NCBI RefSeq assembly: GCF_021026295.1 | Contig: NZ_JAJNDA010000014.1 | Coordinates: 96,684-160,683, forward strand | DNA: 64,000 nucleotides | From: Actinomycetospora soli | GTDB lineage: Bacteria; Actinomycetota; Actinomycetes; Mycobacteriales; Pseudonocardiaceae | Reading direction: 5' to 3' | In this document: positions 13,446 through 20,530 of the stretch, one piece after another | Numbering within the stretch: the first letter of the stretch is position 1 | How the letters are laid out: every line of letters begins with the position of its first letter | Translations under genes and position numbers: made by a program | Notes under the pieces: model-generated | Seen by the model: only the letters and a program-made list of their open reading frames with translations | Database searches by the model: none | Told to the model about the DNA's origin: nothing

Positions 13446-14690
13446 GTGTCCCGTGACCGTGTCGCCGTGATCGGGGCCGGGGTGTCCGGCCTGACGGCCG
13501 CCTACGTCCTGCAGCGGGCCCACGACGTCACGCTCTTCGAGGCCGAGTCCCGGCTCGGCGGGCACGCGCACACCCACGACCTGCCGACCGTCAGCGTCGA
13601 CTCGGGCTTCATCGTCCACAACCACGCGACCTACCCGAACCTCATCCGGCTGTTCGGCGAGCTCGGCGTCGCCACGCAGGACTCCGAGATGTCGATGAGC
13701 GTGCGCGACGAGTCGACCGGGCTCGAGTACGCCGGGGCCCGCGGGGCGGCCGGACTGTTCGCCCAGAGGCGGAACCTCGCGAACCCGCGCCACCTCGCGA
13801 TGCTCGCCGAGGTGCTGCGCTTCCATCGCGCCGCCCGCCGGGTGCTCGCGGGGCACACCGACCTGGACGACGAGGTCACGCTCGGCGAGTTCCTGCGCCG
13901 GCACCGCTTCTCGCGCTACTTCGTGGACACGTTCGCGGTGCCGGTGGTGTCGGCGGTGTGGTCCTCGGGCGCGGAGCTGTCGATGCAGTACCCGGCGCGC
14001 TACCTGTTCGCCTTCCTGGCGAACCACGGGCTGCTCTCCGTGGGCGGCTCGCACCAATGGAAGACCGTGGTCGGCGGGTCGGCGCGCTACGTGGAGAAGG
14101 CCGCGAAGGGGCTGTCGGCGGTCGAGGTGTCGACGCCGGTGCGTGCCGTGGCGCGGGTCGGGGAGGGCTTCGAGGTCCGTGACGACGCGGACGTGGCCCA
14201 CGCGTTCGACCGGGTCGTGATCGCCACGCACGCGCCGACCGCCCTGTCGATGCTGGCCGCGCCGACCGCGGACGAGACCGCCGTGCTGGGTGCCTTCGAG
14301 TACTCGGCCAACGAGACGTGGCTGCACACCGACACCTCGATCCTCCCGACCGCCCCGGATGCGCGGGCGTCGTGGAACCTGCTGCGGGTGCCCGGCGACG
14401 ACCGCGTGCTGGTCAGCTACGACATGACGCGCCTGATGCGGCTCGACACCCCCGAGACCTACGTCGTCACCCTCAACGCGACCGACCGGGTCGACCCGTC
14501 GACGGTGATCGCGCGGATGGACTACGAGCACCCCGCCTACACGCCCGCGTCGGTGGCGGCGCAGAAGCGGCTGCCCGGGCTGAACGACGGCCGGATCGCC
14601 TTCGCCGGGGCCTACCACGGCTGGGGCTTCCACGAGGACGGCTGTGCCTCGGGGGTGCGGGCCGCCGCCTCGCTCGGGGTGACGTGGTGA
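13446..14690 (+). CDS. FAD-dependent amine-oxidase-like oxidoreductase (lipid-cluster type)
   Basis: The 414-aa flavoprotein begins with the dinucleotide-binding motif VIGAGVSGLTAAY and the flavin motif ESRLGGHAHTH, and ends with FAGAYHGWGFHEDGC. It belongs to the NAD(P)/FAD amine-oxidase-like group that pairs with DUF1365, CFA-type methyltransferases and DUF1295. Relatives act in unsaturated, cyclopropane or furan fatty-acid modification; the exact step here is inferred. GTG 13446 follows GAGGAG. It overlaps the next gene by 4 bp. Confidence 0.88.
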   Translation: MSRDRVAVIGAGVSGLTAAYVLQRAHDVTLFEAESRLGGHAHTHDLPTVSVDSGFIVHNHATYPNLIRLFGELGVATQDSEMSMSVRDESTGLEYAGARGAAGLFAQRRNLANPRHLAMLAEVLRFHRAARRVLAGHTDLDDEVTLGEFLRRHRFSRYFVDTFAVPVVSAVWSSGAELSMQYPARYLFAFLANHGLLSVGGSHQWKTVVGGSARYVEKAAKGLSAVEVSTPVRAVARVGEGFEVRDDADVAHAFDRVVIATHAPTALSMLAAPTADETAVLGAFEYSANETWLHTDTSILPTAPDARASWNLLRVPGDDRVLVSYDMTRLMRLDTPETYVVTLNATDRVDPSTVIARMDYEHPAYTPASVAAQKRLPGLNDGRIAFAGAYHGWGFHEDGCASGVRAAASLGVTW

Positions 14691-15421
14691 CGTCCCTCTA
14701 CGACGTCCTGGTGGAGCACCGGCGGTCGCAGACGCTGCAGGACGCCTTCACCCACCGCATGTACCTGTGGCTGGTCGACCTGGACGATCTGCCGTCGTAC
14801 CCGGGCGTGTCCTTCCGAGGCGCCGACCACCTCGGCGACCCCGACCGCTCCATCCGCGAGAACCTCGACGCGTTCCTCGCCGCGCAGGGCCGCGAGCGCC
14901 CGGCGCGGGTGCTGATGCTCGCCCACCCGCGGACGTTCGGGTACGTGTTCAACCCGATCTCGTTGTACTGGGCGTACGCGGCGACGGGGGAGCTGTCCGC
15001 GGTCGTCGCCGAGGTCCACAACACCTACGGCGGCCGGCACCACTACCTGCTCGACGTGGACGGGGCCGGCCGCGCGCGGGTGGACAAGGACTTCTACGTC
15101 TCGCCGTTCTTCCCGGTCGACGGGGAGTACCGGATGAAGGTGCCGGAGCCGGGCGGGACGCTGGCGGCCACCGTGGTGCTGCGGCGGTCGGCGCCCGAGG
15201 GCGGGCTCGCGACGGCGTTCGTCGCGACGATGCGGGGGACCCGCCGTCCGGCCACCCGCCGGGCGGTGCTCCGCGCCGTGCTGCGGCACCCGTTCGTCAC
15301 GCACCGGGTCTCGCTCGCCATCCGTCGTCGCGGGATCGCGCTGTACCTGCGCGGGCTGCCCGTCGTGACCCGCACGGCCGCGGACGTCGACCGCGGGCTG
15401 GGTCAGCTCGAGCGGGTCTGA
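14687..15421 (+). CDS. DUF1365 family protein
   Basis: The 244-aa protein carries family signatures HRMYLWLVDLDDL near the N-terminus, PRTFGYVFNPISLYW in the middle and KDFYVSPFFPVDG further on. It starts in the stop codon of the FAD gene (GTGA overlap). DUF1365 proteins accompany CFA-type methyltransferases and FAD oxidoreductases in many phyla. No biochemical function is established to my knowledge. Confidence 0.88.
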   Translation: MTSLYDVLVEHRRSQTLQDAFTHRMYLWLVDLDDLPSYPGVSFRGADHLGDPDRSIRENLDAFLAAQGRERPARVLMLAHPRTFGYVFNPISLYWAYAATGELSAVVAEVHNTYGGRHHYLLDVDGAGRARVDKDFYVSPFFPVDGEYRMKVPEPGGTLAATVVLRRSAPEGGLATAFVATMRGTRRPATRRAVLRAVLRHPFVTHRVSLAIRRRGIALYLRGLPVVTRTAADVDRGLGQLERV

Positions 15422-16867: not shown

Positions 16868-16887
16868 TTGACACCAAGTCGTGTCAA
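16868..16887. promoter_or_regulatory. Operator-like palindrome before the LinD-like operon
   Basis: TTGACAC-N6-GTGTCAA is a perfect 7-bp inverted repeat 8 bp before the small ORF that starts the operon. An almost identical element with the same N6 spacing sits at 19598-19617 in front of the TetR gene. I infer a shared TetR binding site. Confidence 0.7.
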
Positions 16888-16895
16888 CTACGAGC

Positions 16896-17045
16896 ATGCC
16901 CGTCGTGGCGTGCTGCGTGGCTCTGGGTCTGGTGGTCGCGGTCGTCCGTGACGTCCTGCATCGGCTGGTCCCGGGCACGGCGCCCGTGCAGGTCGGCTTC
17001 GCCCCGCCGGCCCGGCGTCCGGCGCCGTCCGAGGGGGCCCGATGA
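16896..17045 (+). CDS. 49-aa hydrophobic small protein
   Basis: An ATG at 16896 opens a 49-aa frame: one hydrophobic segment (VVACCVALGLVVAVV) followed by a basic, Pro/Ala-rich tail. It overlaps the LinD-like gene by 4 bp (ATGA), a typical sign of translational coupling, and sits just after the operator-like palindrome. It may be a membrane partner or only a leader peptide that sets translation of the next gene. Confidence 0.55.
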   Translation: MPVVACCVALGLVVAVVRDVLHRLVPGTAPVQVGFAPPARRPAPSEGAR

Positions 17046-18958
17046 GCACCGCGACCGGCCGCACCACGACGGTCCTGCTGCCCGAGGTCCCCGCGTTCGC
17101 GCCCGTCACCGCCCGCCGGATGCGCCGCGCGCTCGCCGTGTACGGCGTGGTCTGGCTCGTCGGGTCTCTGCCGGGCTGGGTCGGCGCCGGGCCGGTCGTG
17201 ACGACGCTCGGGCTGGGGCTCGTCGTGCCCGGTGGCGGGTTCGTGGCGACCGGCTCGCCGGTGCTCGCCGCGGTCGCGGCGGCGGCGTTCGTGGTGTCGC
17301 TGCTGGTCTGGTGGTACGCGGGCCCGGTCGTCCTGCCGCCGCTGGTCTGGCTCCTGGCGGCGGGTGTCGCGCCGCTCGCGTCCGCGGGCGGCGTCGAGCC
17401 GTGGGCGCCGGTCGCGGTCCCGGCGGCGGTCGTCGTCGCGCCGGCGCTCGCCTTCGTCGTCCACCGGGTGCGGCACGCCGGGCAGCGCCGCCGTGGGCGG
17501 GCGATCAACGCCGAGCTCGCGCGCGTCCGGTTCGCGGTCGGGGGCCCTCCGGACCTCACGAGCGCGCTCCCCGTCGCCGAGAGCTCCCCGGAGGACCTCG
17601 CGCACCTGCGGTACTCCCTCGACGTCGCCCTCCAGCCGGTCGACGGCTTCGACGGGCTCGTGGTGCTCGAGCAGTACCGCGAGGGCGCGCTGCGCTACCA
17701 GCTGACGGCGCTCGGCGACGGCATCGCGATGTCGCAGTACACCCGCACCCCGGCGTTCTCCGGCTACGTCGCCGAGGCCCAGCGCAACGCGATCGAGAAG
17801 ATGCTGCTGCGCAGGGTCTGGGGCTACTGGCGCACCGAGAACCTGTGGGGCAACCTCTCGACGAACCGCGACCCGTTCGACACCGACGAGAACATCATGC
17901 TCACCGGGTGGCACGGGACGATGGTGGGCCTCTACGAGCTGCTCAACGACGACCGCTACTCGCGGCCGGGCGCCCTGACCTACCGCTGGTCCGACGACGA
18001 GGCCTACGCGCACGACTTCCCCGCGCTCGCCCGTCAGCTGCACGGCGGGATGTCCCGCTCGGACTACGCCCTGATCCCGTGCGAGCCGAACTGGATCTAC
18101 ACGGTCTGCAACGCCTTCGGGATCACCGCGCTGCTCGCGCACGACCGGGCGCGCGGCACGGCGTTGTTCGAGGACGTCCGGGACCGGCTGCACCACGCCT
18201 ACGAGCACGAGTTCCTGCGCCCGGACGGGCGGATCGTCGGCGTCCGGGCCCGGCACCTCGGCCTGTCGTGGAACTTCTGGGCGGGCGCGGCCGTCGCGCT
18301 CAACACCACCTACTGGCTCCACCCCGCGTTCCCCGACCTGGCCCAGCGCACCTGGTGGCTGCTGCGCCGCACCGGGCTCGCGCTGCGGGACGGACGACCG
18401 CAGCTGCCGCCCCGCCTGGTCAACCGCCTCGACCCGGGCTACTACACGCTGGGCCGGGACACGTTCGGCCAGGTCGCGATCACGATGGCCGCGCGGGAGA
18501 TCGGTGACGAGGAGATGGCGGACGCGGCCGCGACGCTGCTCGCCGAGCGGGAGGGCGTCGAGGAGAGCCACGGCGCCCGGCGGATCGCGGGCGTCTCCCC
18601 GATGGTGAACTTCTACGCCGTCCTCGGACGCTTCGGGCGTCCGCACGGGCTGCGGGACCTGGTCGGCCACGGCGCGGTCCCGGCGGCCTGGCGGACCGGA
18701 CCACGCCTGGCCGGGGCGGCGTATCCCGAGGTCCTCGTGGCCCGGGCGCTCACCGACGGCGACGCGCTCGACCTGGTGCTGCGGCCGGGCGCCGGACCCG
18801 TGCGCACCACGCTCGCCGTCGACCGGCTCGTGCCCGGCCGGTGCTACGCCGTCTCCGGGGCGGCCGCGGGGGAGGTCGTCGCGGACGACGCGGGCCGCGC
18901 ACACGTCGAGGTCGATCTCGGTGACCGGCGCGAGGTGCGCCTCCACCCGCGGGCGTGA
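17042..18958 (+). CDS. Linalool dehydratase/isomerase-like membrane enzyme
   Basis: The 638-aa protein has four hydrophobic helices in the first 150 residues and then a large domain resembling linalool dehydratase/isomerase (LinD), an (alpha/alpha)6-barrel. Visible signatures are NLSTNRDPF and ENIMLTGWHGTM (about 275-305) and PCEPNWIYTVCN with Cys347 and Cys356. Their nine-residue spacing equals that of the active-site Cys171 and Cys180 of Castellaniella LinD. Such enzymes hydrate or dehydrate terpenoid alcohols without a cofactor; substrate here is unknown. A TetR gene and a DUF2236 gene share its operator. A different alpha-barrel enzyme is possible but less likely. Confidence 0.75.
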   Translation: MSTATGRTTTVLLPEVPAFAPVTARRMRRALAVYGVVWLVGSLPGWVGAGPVVTTLGLGLVVPGGGFVATGSPVLAAVAAAAFVVSLLVWWYAGPVVLPPLVWLLAAGVAPLASAGGVEPWAPVAVPAAVVVAPALAFVVHRVRHAGQRRRGRAINAELARVRFAVGGPPDLTSALPVAESSPEDLAHLRYSLDVALQPVDGFDGLVVLEQYREGALRYQLTALGDGIAMSQYTRTPAFSGYVAEAQRNAIEKMLLRRVWGYWRTENLWGNLSTNRDPFDTDENIMLTGWHGTMVGLYELLNDDRYSRPGALTYRWSDDEAYAHDFPALARQLHGGMSRSDYALIPCEPNWIYTVCNAFGITALLAHDRARGTALFEDVRDRLHHAYEHEFLRPDGRIVGVRARHLGLSWNFWAGAAVALNTTYWLHPAFPDLAQRTWWLLRRTGLALRDGRPQLPPRLVNRLDPGYYTLGRDTFGQVAITMAAREIGDEEMADAAATLLAEREGVEESHGARRIAGVSPMVNFYAVLGRFGRPHGLRDLVGHGAVPAAWRTGPRLAGAAYPEVLVARALTDGDALDLVLRPGAGPVRTTLAVDRLVPGRCYAVSGAAAGEVVADDAGRAHVEVDLGDRREVRLHPRA

Positions 18959-18965
18959 GGTCCGG

Positions 18966-19586
18966 TCAGCGTCGCGGACGCAGCGGCGCGCAGGCCGCGA
19001 TGCCGACGGCCGCGAGGTGGGACACGAGGGCCTCGTCGGCGATCGGCAGGTCGTGCAGCGCCCGCCGGTCGACCACCTCGGTCACCCCGGCCACGAGCGT
19101 CAGCAGGGTGACGGCGGGGTCCTGCCCGCTGGCCGGATCGGCCGCGAGCTCGCCGGACAGGGCGGCCACGAACTCGTCGATCACCCCGTGCCGCCGCGAC
19201 CGCAGCGTCGCGTGGGCGGGCGCCTCGGCCCACAGACGCGCCCAGCCGCGGTCCGCCGCGAGGGCGGTGAGCACGGACCGCACGACGACGCGGATGCGGT
19301 CCTCGAGCTCCGGCGGCGCGTCGGCGAGGGCGGTCCGCAGTGCGGTGCGCAGTGCGGCCGTGGCGTCGTCGAACACCGCGACGAGCAGGGCGTCGAGCCC
19401 GGAGAAGCTCTCGTAGAAGTAGCGCTTGGTCAGCTCCGCCCGGGTGCACACGCCGTCGACCGACAGGCCCGTCGAGCCCTGCTCGGCGATCAGCCCCCGC
19501 GTCGCGTCCAGGAGCCGCGTCCGGCGCGCGGCCGTGCGTTCGGCCGCGCTCACCCCGCGATGCGGTCGTGTCACACCCGGTGCCAT
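18966..19586 (-). CDS. TetR family transcriptional repressor
   Basis: The 206-aa protein has an N-terminal TetR helix-turn-helix (ARRTRLLDATRGLIAEQG, then VDGVCTRAELTKRYFYESF) and a ligand-binding helical C-terminus. I chose ATG 19586; the in-frame GTG at 19604 lies inside the operator-like palindrome. It is transcribed toward the LinD-like gene and divergently from the DUF2236 gene, so it most likely controls both and itself. Confidence 0.88.
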   Translation of the reverse strand: MAPGVTRPHRGVSAAERTAARRTRLLDATRGLIAEQGSTGLSVDGVCTRAELTKRYFYESFSGLDALLVAVFDDATAALRTALRTALADAPPELEDRIRVVVRSVLTALAADRGWARLWAEAPAHATLRSRRHGVIDEFVAALSGELAADPASGQDPAVTLLTLVAGVTEVVDRRALHDLPIADEALVSHLAAVGIAACAPLRPRR

Positions 19587-19597
19587 CGGGAGCCATC

Positions 19598-19617
19598 TTG
19601 ACACGGCTCCGTGTCCG
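19598..19617. promoter_or_regulatory. Operator-like palindrome between tetR and the DUF2236 gene
   Basis: TTGACAC-N6-GTGTC repeats the element at 16868. Its inner 16 bp, GACACGG-ct-CCGTGTC, are a perfect palindrome. It sits 12 bp from the TetR start codon and about 50 bp from the DUF2236 start, fitting autoregulation plus control of the divergent gene. Confidence 0.7.
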
Positions 19618-19669
19618 GAGCAGGGTGCAAAGCTGACACGAAACCGTTCCTACTTTGTGCGGAGGCGGC

Positions 19670-20530
19670 ATGCGTTGGGTCCTGGGCGCGACGGAGCGCC
19701 ACCGGCTCACCACGCTCGACCCGGAGCGCGACCACACCGAGATCGCGCGGACGAGCCTGGAGACCCTGCACGGACACCGGGCGCTCGTGCTGGCGATGTT
19801 CACGGTGTCGTTCATGAAGCAGGTCGCCGTCCCGACCATGGGCCGCATCCTGTGGCGGCGGGGCACCGGCGACATCATCACGGACACCGCGGGTCGCAAC
19901 GACGACACCATCGTCTTCTTCGGCCGCTTCCTCGAGCACGGCCCGGACTCCCCGGAGGGCATCCGGTGGATCGAGCGGCTCAACGCGATCCACGCGCACT
20001 TCCCGATCCGGGACGAGGACTCGCTCTACACCCTCGGCACGCTCGCCCTCGACCCCGAGCAGATCGCGGCCGGCCTCGGGGCCCGCCCCTTCACCCGGGT
20101 CGAGCTCGAGGGACAGTGGCGGTTCTGGCGGGCGGTGGCCGTCCGGCAGCACCTGCGGGACATCCCGGGCAGCCGGGAGGAGCTCCGCACGTGGATGCAC
20201 CGGTACGAGGAGCAGGAGTTCGCGCCGAGCGAGGCCGGACGGGCGGTGGCGGACGCGCTCGTGGAGGACTTCTCGCGCCGGGTCCTGCCGGCGCCGCTGC
20301 GTCCCTTCGGGCCGGAGGTCCTGGCGGCGATCTCCCCGGAGAACCTCCGGGTCACGCACGGGCTGCCCCGACCCCGGCCGGCCGTCACCGCCGCCGTGCG
20401 GGCGGTCGGGCGGGCCTACCTCGACGGGGTCGCCGTGCGGCCGGTCCCGCGCGACCGCTCACTGGTCACCCTGTTCGACCGCCGCGGCGGCGCCTCCGGC
20501 CCCGACCGGCTCGGGTACCGCAGCGTCTGA
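19670..20530 (+). CDS. DUF2236 (MpaB/latex-clearing-like) oxygenase family protein
   Basis: The 286-aa protein has the DUF2236 pattern: an early ...TLHGHRALVLAMFTVSF helix region, the central NAIHAHFPIRDEDSLYTLGTLAL signature and WRFWRAVAVRQHL. Family members include MpaB (oxidative cleavage of a prenyl side chain) and the haem-containing rubber oxygenase Lcp. With a terpene-alcohol-type enzyme and a shared operator next door, an isoprenoid oxidation role is a reasonable inference. The ATG at 19670 follows GGAGG. Confidence 0.78.
   Translation: MRWVLGATERHRLTTLDPERDHTEIARTSLETLHGHRALVLAMFTVSFMKQVAVPTMGRILWRRGTGDIITDTAGRNDDTIVFFGRFLEHGPDSPEGIRWIERLNAIHAHFPIRDEDSLYTLGTLALDPEQIAAGLGARPFTRVELEGQWRFWRAVAVRQHLRDIPGSREELRTWMHRYEEQEFAPSEAGRAVADALVEDFSRRVLPAPLRPFGPEVLAAISPENLRVTHGLPRPRPAVTAAVRAVGRAYLDGVAVRPVPRDRSLVTLFDRRGGASGPDRLGYRSV

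Follow-up and report, generated by a model that had tools for sequence, protein, structure and literature searches.

The window analysed here is a stretch of 64,000 nucleotides of contig NZ_JAJNDA010000014.1 from Actinomycetospora soli. The locus described below begins with operator 1 (16868..16887), a perfect palindrome (TTGACACCAAGTCGTGTCAA) and predicted TetR site that lies 8 nt upstream of an ORF for a dicysteine (M-x-C-C) microprotein (16896..17045, + strand). The microprotein has 49 aa if translated from ATG 16896 or 46 aa from GTG 16905, the latter being the start that aligns with its relatives. Its stop codon overlaps the start of the next gene as ATGA; that gene (17042..18958, + strand) encodes a membrane-anchored homologue, 638 aa long, of the Lis-type linalool isomerases. 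A TetR-family regulator is encoded on the other strand (18966..19604, − strand), and operator 2 (19598..19617, TTGACACGGCTCCGTGTCCG) is found between tetR and a gene of the DUF2236/MpaB-Lcp family (19670..20530, + strand; start ATG 19670 or TTG 19655), whose product is a predicted haem oxygenase. The earlier note on this DNA had overlooked the microprotein ORF, which separates the first palindrome from the enzyme gene. DUF5134 genes adjoin the unit in several Pseudonocardiaceae loci and are not part of the unit in the window.

The comparison covered 84 loci. In 39 of them the isomerase reaches 44% identity or more (38 carry Actinomycetota names, the other is L112), and 45 are more distant, mostly from Pseudomonadota, with seven named as actinobacterial. 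Locus L070, which is the same as L082, was left out of the 84-locus microprotein count and included in the 40-row module and 82-row upstream counts. The tree comprised 78 rows, L070 again being left out and six loci dropped because of internal stops or lengths below 500 aa.

The isomerase and its relation to Lis and LinD

The isomerase matches the Pfam family Ldi (PF18566) with an E-value of 7.4e-82 (275.8 bits, cut-off 26.1) over positions 1–314 of the 318 in the profile. The earlier note had called this protein LinD-like from two cysteines spaced nine residues apart, as are Cys171 and Cys180 of linalool dehydratase/isomerase, and had named a profile search and structure prediction as checks; the results of both agree with Ldi membership. 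In a HMMER alignment, C347 (codon 18080) and C356 (codon 18107) fall on residues 171 and 180 of LinD chain 5g1u, and the pair is invariant in all 78 aligned Lis-like rows, Thauera included. The AlphaFold model (pLDDT 92.0), with helices between residues 21 and 159, contains a LinD-like barrel: its 27 best Foldseek matches are all LinD chains (E-values 4e-11 to 7e-10, TM 0.68–0.79 when normalised to LinD). Chance spacing of cysteines as the source of the motif is ruled out by the profile match, the aligned cysteines and the fold match. An NCBIfam search assigned no family to either the isomerase or the DUF2236 protein, and a database search found 424 isomerase homologues with E-values of at most 0.001.

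Family and cysteines apart, the enzyme is nearer to Lis of Thauera linaloolentis 47Lol (ENO87364, locus L137) than to LinD. The two proteins are 36% identical across residues 21–636, are of similar length and have both catalytic cysteines as well as an N-terminal membrane domain followed by a catalytic domain; most of the scanned loci align from about residue 21 of the isomerase, i.e. with the membrane domain kept. Unlike lis of T. linaloolentis, the window gene, known here from its sequence, sits in a TetR/DUF2236 unit and overlaps its own microprotein gene.

LinD of Castellaniella defragrans (PDB 5g1u and others) shares with the window enzyme the Ldi domain, the predicted barrel fold and the cysteine pair 171/180. 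Its His129, a residue with a catalytic role, corresponds in the sequence alignment to Trp290, and W, Y or F occupies this position in 78/78 Lis-like rows, Thauera Lis included. Furthermore, LinD is periplasmic (PMC6600392), whereas the window enzyme has an extra N-terminal membrane domain and a C-terminal beta domain. The second cysteine pair of LinD (48/101), described as capping its channel (PMC6600392), is absent from the window enzyme, in which C101 is aligned with Leu256 and the only cysteines are C347, C356 and C601. Given Trp290 in place of His129 and the missing capping pair, the chemistry of the isomerase pocket may differ from that of LinD.

As judged by its sequence, the protein is a Lis-type enzyme for which isomerisation of linalool/geraniol is predicted, an activity described for two enzymes only in the literature surveyed. 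The earlier note had the locus hydrating or dehydrating its substrate; 'isomerises, perhaps dehydrates' is the better wording, given the reported difference in dehydratase activity between Lis and LinD (PMC4791888).

The TetR regulator, the DUF2236 protein and the conserved module

The regulator has a match to TetR_N (E-value 1.3e-6, 28.5 bits, cut-off 24), and ATG 19586 is its likelier start because GTG 19604 falls inside the second palindrome. The palindrome had been described in the earlier note as TTGACAC-N6-GTGTC, occurring twice. With two mismatches allowed, this 18-bp pattern is at chance level in the window (five found, 3.5 expected), but the 20-bp symmetric form, TTGACAC-N6-GTGTCAA, is well above it, the window having two with at most two mismatches against 0.03 expected: a perfect one at 16868 and one with two mismatches at 19598. 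The only perfect 20-bp site in the whole genome (6.5 Mb) is the one at the window promoter, and four places, this locus contributing two, have no more than two mismatches, as against one place for the reversed control pattern. These counts rule out a chance origin of the 20-bp form, and a wide regulon is rejected given that the genome has just two other such places. Among the six distinct Pseudonocardiaceae loci with DUF2236, all have an equivalent of operator 1 ahead of the isomerase unit (at most one mismatch to TGACAC-N6-GTGTCA) and five have an equivalent of operator 2 at the same threshold; the sixth, L026, has only a three-mismatch site. Palindromes between tetR and the microprotein gene (arms of 6–10, at most one mismatch) were present in 22 of 25 intervals and absent from three, an uncontrolled and only suggestive count; two of the 27 loci taken had intervals too long to be included. 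TetR is predicted from the sequence to bind both palindromes of the window.

The DUF2236 protein matches MPAB_Lcp_cat (PF09995) with an E-value of 6.7e-13 (49.6 bits, cut-off 23). Its closest known relative, both in sequence (profile E-value 1.1e-26) and in fold (Foldseek E-value 1.4e-10, TM 0.84, with a model of pLDDT 92.5), is the trans-anethole oxygenase of Stenotrophomonas maltophilia (PDB 8s1j), although their identity is about 20%; our literature search found no report of this oxygenase paired with an Ldi-family enzyme. The next fold matches are Lcp structures, with TM merely 0.54–0.59. Residues R76 (19895), T80 (19907) and H108 (19991) correspond to R164, T168 and H198 of Lcp, the Arg/Thr/His set placed near the haem in this family, and are invariant in 21/21 rows; the spacing in LcpK30 (PDB 5o1l), which is extracellular and larger, is likewise four between R and T, and 30 between T and H as compared to 28 here. 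The Lcp counterparts are reported to be essential or nearly so (further literature drawn on: PMC5522427, PMC6311187); the residue names were also searched for in PMC12455561 and none was found there. By analogy, the DUF2236 protein is predicted to be an oxygenase that binds haem b and cleaves C=C bonds with O2. A trans-anethole oxygenase was termed a flavoprotein in a 2013 abstract (PMC3774712), so haem in the nearest relative is less than certain.

Homologues of the DUF2236 protein accompany the isomerase in 21 of the 39 distinct loci with at least 44% isomerase identity, from Pseudonocardiaceae to Nocardia, Rhodococcus and Aeromicrobium, and TetR homologues in 35 of the 39, one of them a weak partial match. 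No DUF2236 homologue was found in the 45 more distant loci, the seven named as actinobacterial included. The pairing of an Ldi-family enzyme with DUF2236, which the earlier note had drawn from a single locus, is thus real and more strongly supported than that note could know, and the TetR-unit architecture is supported too.

A reading to which we give roughly even credence is that the locus represents a conserved, mainly actinobacterial module, consisting of TetR, a membrane relative of Lis, the predicted haem oxygenase and the dicysteine microprotein as likely partner of the isomerase, and that the likely role of this module is to isomerise a prenyl (terpene) alcohol before cutting it at its double bond. 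TetR, sitting on both palindromes, would keep the two promoters silent as long as no terpenoid is bound to it. With its N-terminal helices as anchor, the isomerase would use the invariant cysteine pair to turn tertiary allylic alcohols into primary ones and back, on substrates such as linalool and geraniol or perhaps longer ones; this chemistry is modelled on Lis and LinD. With haem and O2, the DUF2236 protein would break an alkene of the alcohol into carbonyl fragments, in the way that Lcp attacks rubber.

The module could instead serve detoxification, which we consider possible if rather unlikely: TetR would sense toxic monoterpenols, and the isomerase and oxygenase would turn them into less harmful products with no carbon gained. 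A small TetR-linked unit without conserved catabolic neighbours is what one would expect here, and the gene communities shared by more than 10 of the 40 rows are limited to TetR, DUF2236 and the isomerase (among ORFs of at least 90 aa); that no conserved terpene-degradation gene stands beside the module also counts against the main reading. It has also been suggested that LinD may confer detoxification of monoterpene alcohols (PMC6600392), and a transposon screen of T. linaloolentis, directed at linalool degradation, produced mutants impaired in their defence against this alcohol (PMC4847356). However, some homologues from Pseudomonadota lie in catabolic clusters, namely the Thauera atu/lis cluster (L137) and L115, which has carboxylase-, ALDH-, ADH- and acyl-CoA-ligase-like genes nearby (named by eye or by paper), and the isomerase paralogue in the same genome as the window has an acetoacetyl-CoA-synthetase-like gene (named by eye) past its tetR and DUF5134 genes. 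Near some homologues there are also two gene communities that by eye resemble monooxygenases (community 10) and P450s; their position was inconsistent, and they were not used as evidence.

We similarly doubt, while taking it seriously, that the substrate is a long or cellular isoprenoid (phytol/isophytol, farnesol, polyprenol or a hopanoid side chain) rather than a monoterpenol. This would explain both the membrane anchor, kept in most of the scanned loci, and the Lcp-like oxygenase, Lcp being a DUF2236 relative that cuts polyisoprene; yet the characterised Lis, which shares this membrane domain, is reported to act on linalool/geraniol, and the enzyme behind the nearest solved DUF2236 structure takes its name from trans-anethole, a small substrate. 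Finally, the isomerase and DUF2236 genes might be mere neighbours that share a regulator and act on unrelated substrates, as the absence of DUF2236 from 18 of the 39 loci would allow. This we find improbable: the pair persists across Pseudonocardiaceae, Nocardiaceae, Nocardioidaceae and Jatrophihabitans while the identity of the paired DUF2236 copies to the window copy ranges from 39 to 86%, and the two genes are consecutive on one strand, isomerase first, in 14 of 21 loci, with alignment edges no more than 42 nt apart (tetR intervenes in six, and DUF2236 is upstream in one).

The dicysteine microprotein

The microprotein of the window (46–49 aa) is hydrophobic, carries two adjacent cysteines and has no Pfam match. 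In 67 of the 84 distinct loci such an ORF shares the strand of the isomerase gene and is no more than 700 nt away from it, compared with about 0.6 expected from a background of 13 in 2672 strand-kb. An upstream test gave 63 of 82 rows (one locus counted twice) versus 20 of 1116 other genes. The ORFs were selected by CC, and control genes and background DNA were filtered alike; the invariance of CC is thus circular and no evidence by itself. Several of the control matches look like true members of the microprotein family. Of the 17 loci with no microprotein ORF within 700 nt, four have one within about 10 kb at the same locus, L130 and L127 have one elsewhere in the genome, that of L130 beside a second Lis gene, and in the remaining 11 none was found.

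A search of 390 genomes of the family with the microprotein profile returned 10 strong matches (E-values of at most 8e-10; the next was 7.7e-4), six of which had contributed rows to the profile, while G368, G000:C55, G278 and G005 had not. These matches pair off with the 10 isomerase genes that have 62% identity or more (in nine genomes), each lying next to one of them; G002 has a 96-residue isomerase remnant (69%) without the microprotein. Among 150 genomes of the Thauera family, Lis is encoded in three and the microprotein in the same three, two found by the search and one by an ORF scan. Two more genomes of that family gave weak matches (4e-4 and 9e-4) that leave the CC end uncovered.

We regard it as very improbable that the small ORF serves the isomerase gene as a leader peptide with a regulatory role, or as a translational coupler, and does not encode an acting protein. 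Its usual place just before that gene, whose start it overlaps in some loci, would fit such a role, but dN/dS is below 1 in 36/36 pairs (0.15–0.79), some relatives are 100–209 aa long, and a leader could not act from downstream (L119, L150, L206, L075/L076), from 8 kb away in Thauera or, in the genome of L127, with no Lis gene in 1.4 kb on either side.

A proposed two-component isomerase and its implications

We predict that the microprotein is a partner of the Lis-type isomerases. From the ATGA overlap, the two window genes are probably on one transcript and coupled in translation. The microprotein, its adjacent thiols heading a short hydrophobic stretch, would assemble with the membrane domain of the isomerase and keep the cysteine pair reduced and active. 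Expressed alone in Escherichia coli, lis gave a membrane protein that was inactive, and native Lis requires a reductant (PMC4791888); no established reason for the inactivity is given in that source, whose authors suggest wrong folding. In T. linaloolentis a microprotein ORF of the same kind lies on the contig of lis, 8 kb upstream; the E. coli construct lacked it, which is just one of the possible reasons for the inactivity. Our literature search found no paper with both 'linalool' and 'small membrane protein', and none of the papers listed covered both linalool and DUF2236/latex subjects.

A bolder version, offered tentatively and with the balance somewhat against it, is that Lis-type isomerases are two-component membrane enzymes, each needing an M-x-C-C microprotein, overlooked as mostly tiny and unannotated, that supplies the redox-active thiols which LinD obtains from its own second cysteine pair. 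In Actinobacteria a single TetR would control these components together with a DUF2236 haem oxygenase, in a previously undescribed O2-dependent isomerise-and-cleave route.

The microprotein accompanies the isomerase gene across at least three phyla, and its absence may account for the inactive recombinant Lis. If true, the two-component reading would add a new subunit family, provide a likely use for a subfamily of DUF2236 proteins and make the hundreds of homologues found here (the 424 noted above) usable for making or breaking terpene alcohols.

Gene order and type of the isomerase

The locus opens with a perfect 20-bp palindrome (predicted operator 1, 16868–16887), followed by a dicysteine microprotein ORF of 46–49 aa (16896 or 16905 to 17045), the Ldi-family isomerase gene (17042–18958), tetR on the opposite strand (18966–19604, with 19586 the likelier start), a second palindrome (operator 2, 19598–19617) and the DUF2236 gene (19655 or 19670 to 20530). 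The enzyme, tetR, DUF2236 gene and two palindromes reported in the earlier note are all where it placed them, but it overlooked the microprotein ORF between operator 1 and the isomerase gene. Upstream of the locus, 13446–15421 holds a gene that by eye resembles FAD-dependent oxidoreductases and an overlapping downstream ORF; a comparison of neighbourhoods across the genus found homologues of neither, and they are seemingly unrelated to the isomerase locus.

The likeness to LinD suggested in that note was borne out by the Pfam Ldi match (E 7.4e-82), the HMMER alignment of C347 and C356 with LinD residues 171 and 180, and the AlphaFold model (pLDDT 92.0), whose top 27 Foldseek matches are all LinD chains. 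Among relatives that bear a name, the closest belongs to Actinomycetospora corticicola (85%). Scanning named genomes for relatives gave 79 loci, including that of Thauera linaloolentis 47Lol (L137), the source strain of the characterised membrane-anchored linalool isomerase Lis (PMC4791888). This Lis matches the isomerase at 36% over residues 21–636, with the membrane domain covered, whereas the alignment with LinD is confined to the catalytic domain. Across 78 aligned Lis-like proteins C347, E348, P349, W351 and C356 are invariant. The position aligned with LinD His129, which we take to have a catalytic role in LinD, is aromatic in all 78. The isomerase also lacks the second cysteine pair, described as capping the channel in LinD (PMC6600392). 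Because the Lis match spans the membrane domain and two LinD features are missing, the isomerase is, as judged from its sequence, of the Lis type within the Ldi family rather than LinD proper.

The genome that holds the window has a second Lis-type gene (locus L023, G000:C55, 9406–14906), broken by an internal stop, which may make it a pseudogene or reflect an error of assembly. It has its own microprotein and, as neighbours, a different TetR gene, a DUF5134 gene and (by eye) an acetoacetyl-CoA-synthetase-like gene. A second Ldi subfamily is common in the genus (loci L009–L015 of genomes G017, G012, G015, G007, G009, G001 and G016), scores 366–376 bits to Pfam Ldi, above the isomerase of the window, and in several genomes lies near acyl-CoA-ligase-like genes (by eye); the microprotein had no match in these seven genomes. 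In locus L034 (G013:C6) about 1.6 kb separates two Ldi-family genes, of which one is highly divergent (47 bits); G005 and G006 have similarly divergent copies, adjoining the same small conserved genes.

The predicted DUF2236 oxygenase and the predicted operators

The DUF2236 protein scores above the Pfam cut-off, and its R76, T80 and H108, invariant in 21 homologues (all from isomerase loci), are the counterparts of the haem and active-site residues R164, T168 and H198 of LcpK30; the R-to-T spacing is 4 in both, and T-to-H is 28 versus 30 in LcpK30. The top fold match of its predicted model (pLDDT 92.5) is trans-anethole oxygenase (TM 0.84; profile E 1.1e-26). It is predicted to bind haem and to cleave alkenes.

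Among 39 distinct loci with an isomerase at least 44% identical to that of the window (the window, its own-genome paralogue, three loci from family genomes and 34 from the scan), 35 have a TetR homologue, one of them a weak partial match, and 21 a DUF2236 homologue, which is absent from all 45 more distant loci. The pairing proposed in the earlier note is real and widespread, occurring in genera that include Actinomycetospora, Saccharopolyspora, Pseudonocardia, Nocardia, Rhodococcus, Williamsia, Aeromicrobium and Jatrophihabitans; the DUF2236 gene directly follows the isomerase gene in 14 loci, is separated from it by tetR in six and lies upstream in one. Its distribution on the tree needs 4 gains or losses versus a shuffled mean of 17.9. 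The literature searched contained no earlier description of this pairing, and we know of none.

With at most one mismatch, the operator precedes the isomerase unit in all six distinct Pseudonocardiaceae loci with DUF2236. Five of the six also have it in the interval from tetR to the DUF2236 gene, where the sixth (L026) has only a 3-mismatch site. Other groups have different palindromes in the tetR-microprotein interval, e.g. TCAGGAACTG-N8-CAGTTCCTGA in loci of Rhodococcus and Williamsia, a suggestive pattern that would fit co-evolution of TetR with its operator.

The microprotein

The microprotein is the most valuable new fact of this analysis. Read from GTG 16905, it is short and hydrophobic, starting M-A-C-C and continuing into an Arg/Pro-rich part (FAPPARR), and its ORF overlaps the isomerase start by ATGA. 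It matches no Pfam family, and those of its 26 database relatives that are named are hypothetical or uncharacterised proteins; dN/dS is 0.15–0.79 in 36/36 pairs.

In 63 of 82 rows an ORF of this build immediately precedes the isomerase gene, versus 20 of 1116 other genes of the same loci. When the search was narrowed to hydrophobic ORFs with exactly M-x-C-C, on the strand of the isomerase gene and at most 700 nt up- or downstream, 67 of 84 distinct loci had one, with ∼ 0.6 expected from a background of 13 ORFs in 2672 strand-kb elsewhere in the same DNA, several of which look like true members. Four of the 17 loci missed (L115, L132, L137, L146) carry the ORF within ∼ 10 kb, still inside the locus. 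For two more it is elsewhere in the genome, directly ahead of a second Lis gene (L130) or with no Lis gene in 1.4 kb either side (L127); none was found for the remaining 11, three of which start at a contig end. The M-x-C-C microprotein of the L127 genome (L165, 1501–1833) lies between sensor-like and HAD-phosphatase-like genes (by eye), in a 3.3-kb stretch free of Lis genes; that genome's Lis gene is the one at L127.

Across the window's family (390 genomes) the microprotein profile gave 10 strong matches (six being rows of the profile itself), each adjoining one of the 10 isomerase genes at least 62% identical; the eleventh-ranked match was six orders of magnitude weaker. A 96-residue isomerase remnant in G002 has no microprotein, and the profile had no match in eight genomes of the genus with only other Ldi-family genes. 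Among 150 genomes of the Thauera family, an independent lineage, three have Lis; the microprotein search finds two of them, and an ORF scan places the microprotein directly downstream of lis in the third. Two other genomes of that family gave weak matches that leave out the CC end.

In eight loci of Nocardioides, Aeromicrobium and Pseudonocardia eucalypti (L085, L086, L089, L090, L095, L097, L107, L139) the upstream microprotein is lengthened to 180–209 aa with further hydrophobic segments. A single cluster in Mycolicibacter sinensis (L147) contains two Lis-type genes separated by an ALDH-like gene, and both have an M-x-C-C microprotein of their own in front.

Proposed partner of the isomerase and proposed mechanism

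In L119, L150, L206 and L075/L076 the isomerase gene comes first and the microprotein ORF is downstream of it. In T. linaloolentis the ORF shares a contig with lis but stands 8 kb upstream, flanked by acyl-CoA-ligase-like and carboxylase-like genes; their length and order suggest that these are atuH and atuC. The published account of the cluster mentions genes in between that were annotated as hypothetical proteins (PMC4847356). As described by Marmulla and colleagues, lis alone in E. coli yielded a membrane-located, inactive product, and native Lis required a reductant (PMC4791888). One explanation joining these observations is that the dicysteine microprotein was what the isomerase lacked, be it as a subunit or as a keeper of thiols. 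Wrong folding in E. coli, suggested by the Lis authors (PMC4791888), is a possible cause of the inactivity. A leader peptide of the isomerase gene is the less favoured reading, since it could not work from downstream or from 8 kb away.

The analysis establishes the family memberships, the conserved residues, the order of the genes, the conservation of the operator and the linkage of the microprotein; the mechanism is a proposal. With the microprotein as partner, a terpenoid would lift TetR from its predicted operators, and microprotein and isomerase would assemble in the membrane. The predicted substrate is an allylic prenyl alcohol, whose hydroxyl group the isomerase would shift, and the DUF2236 enzyme would cut a double bond with O2 to give the predicted products.
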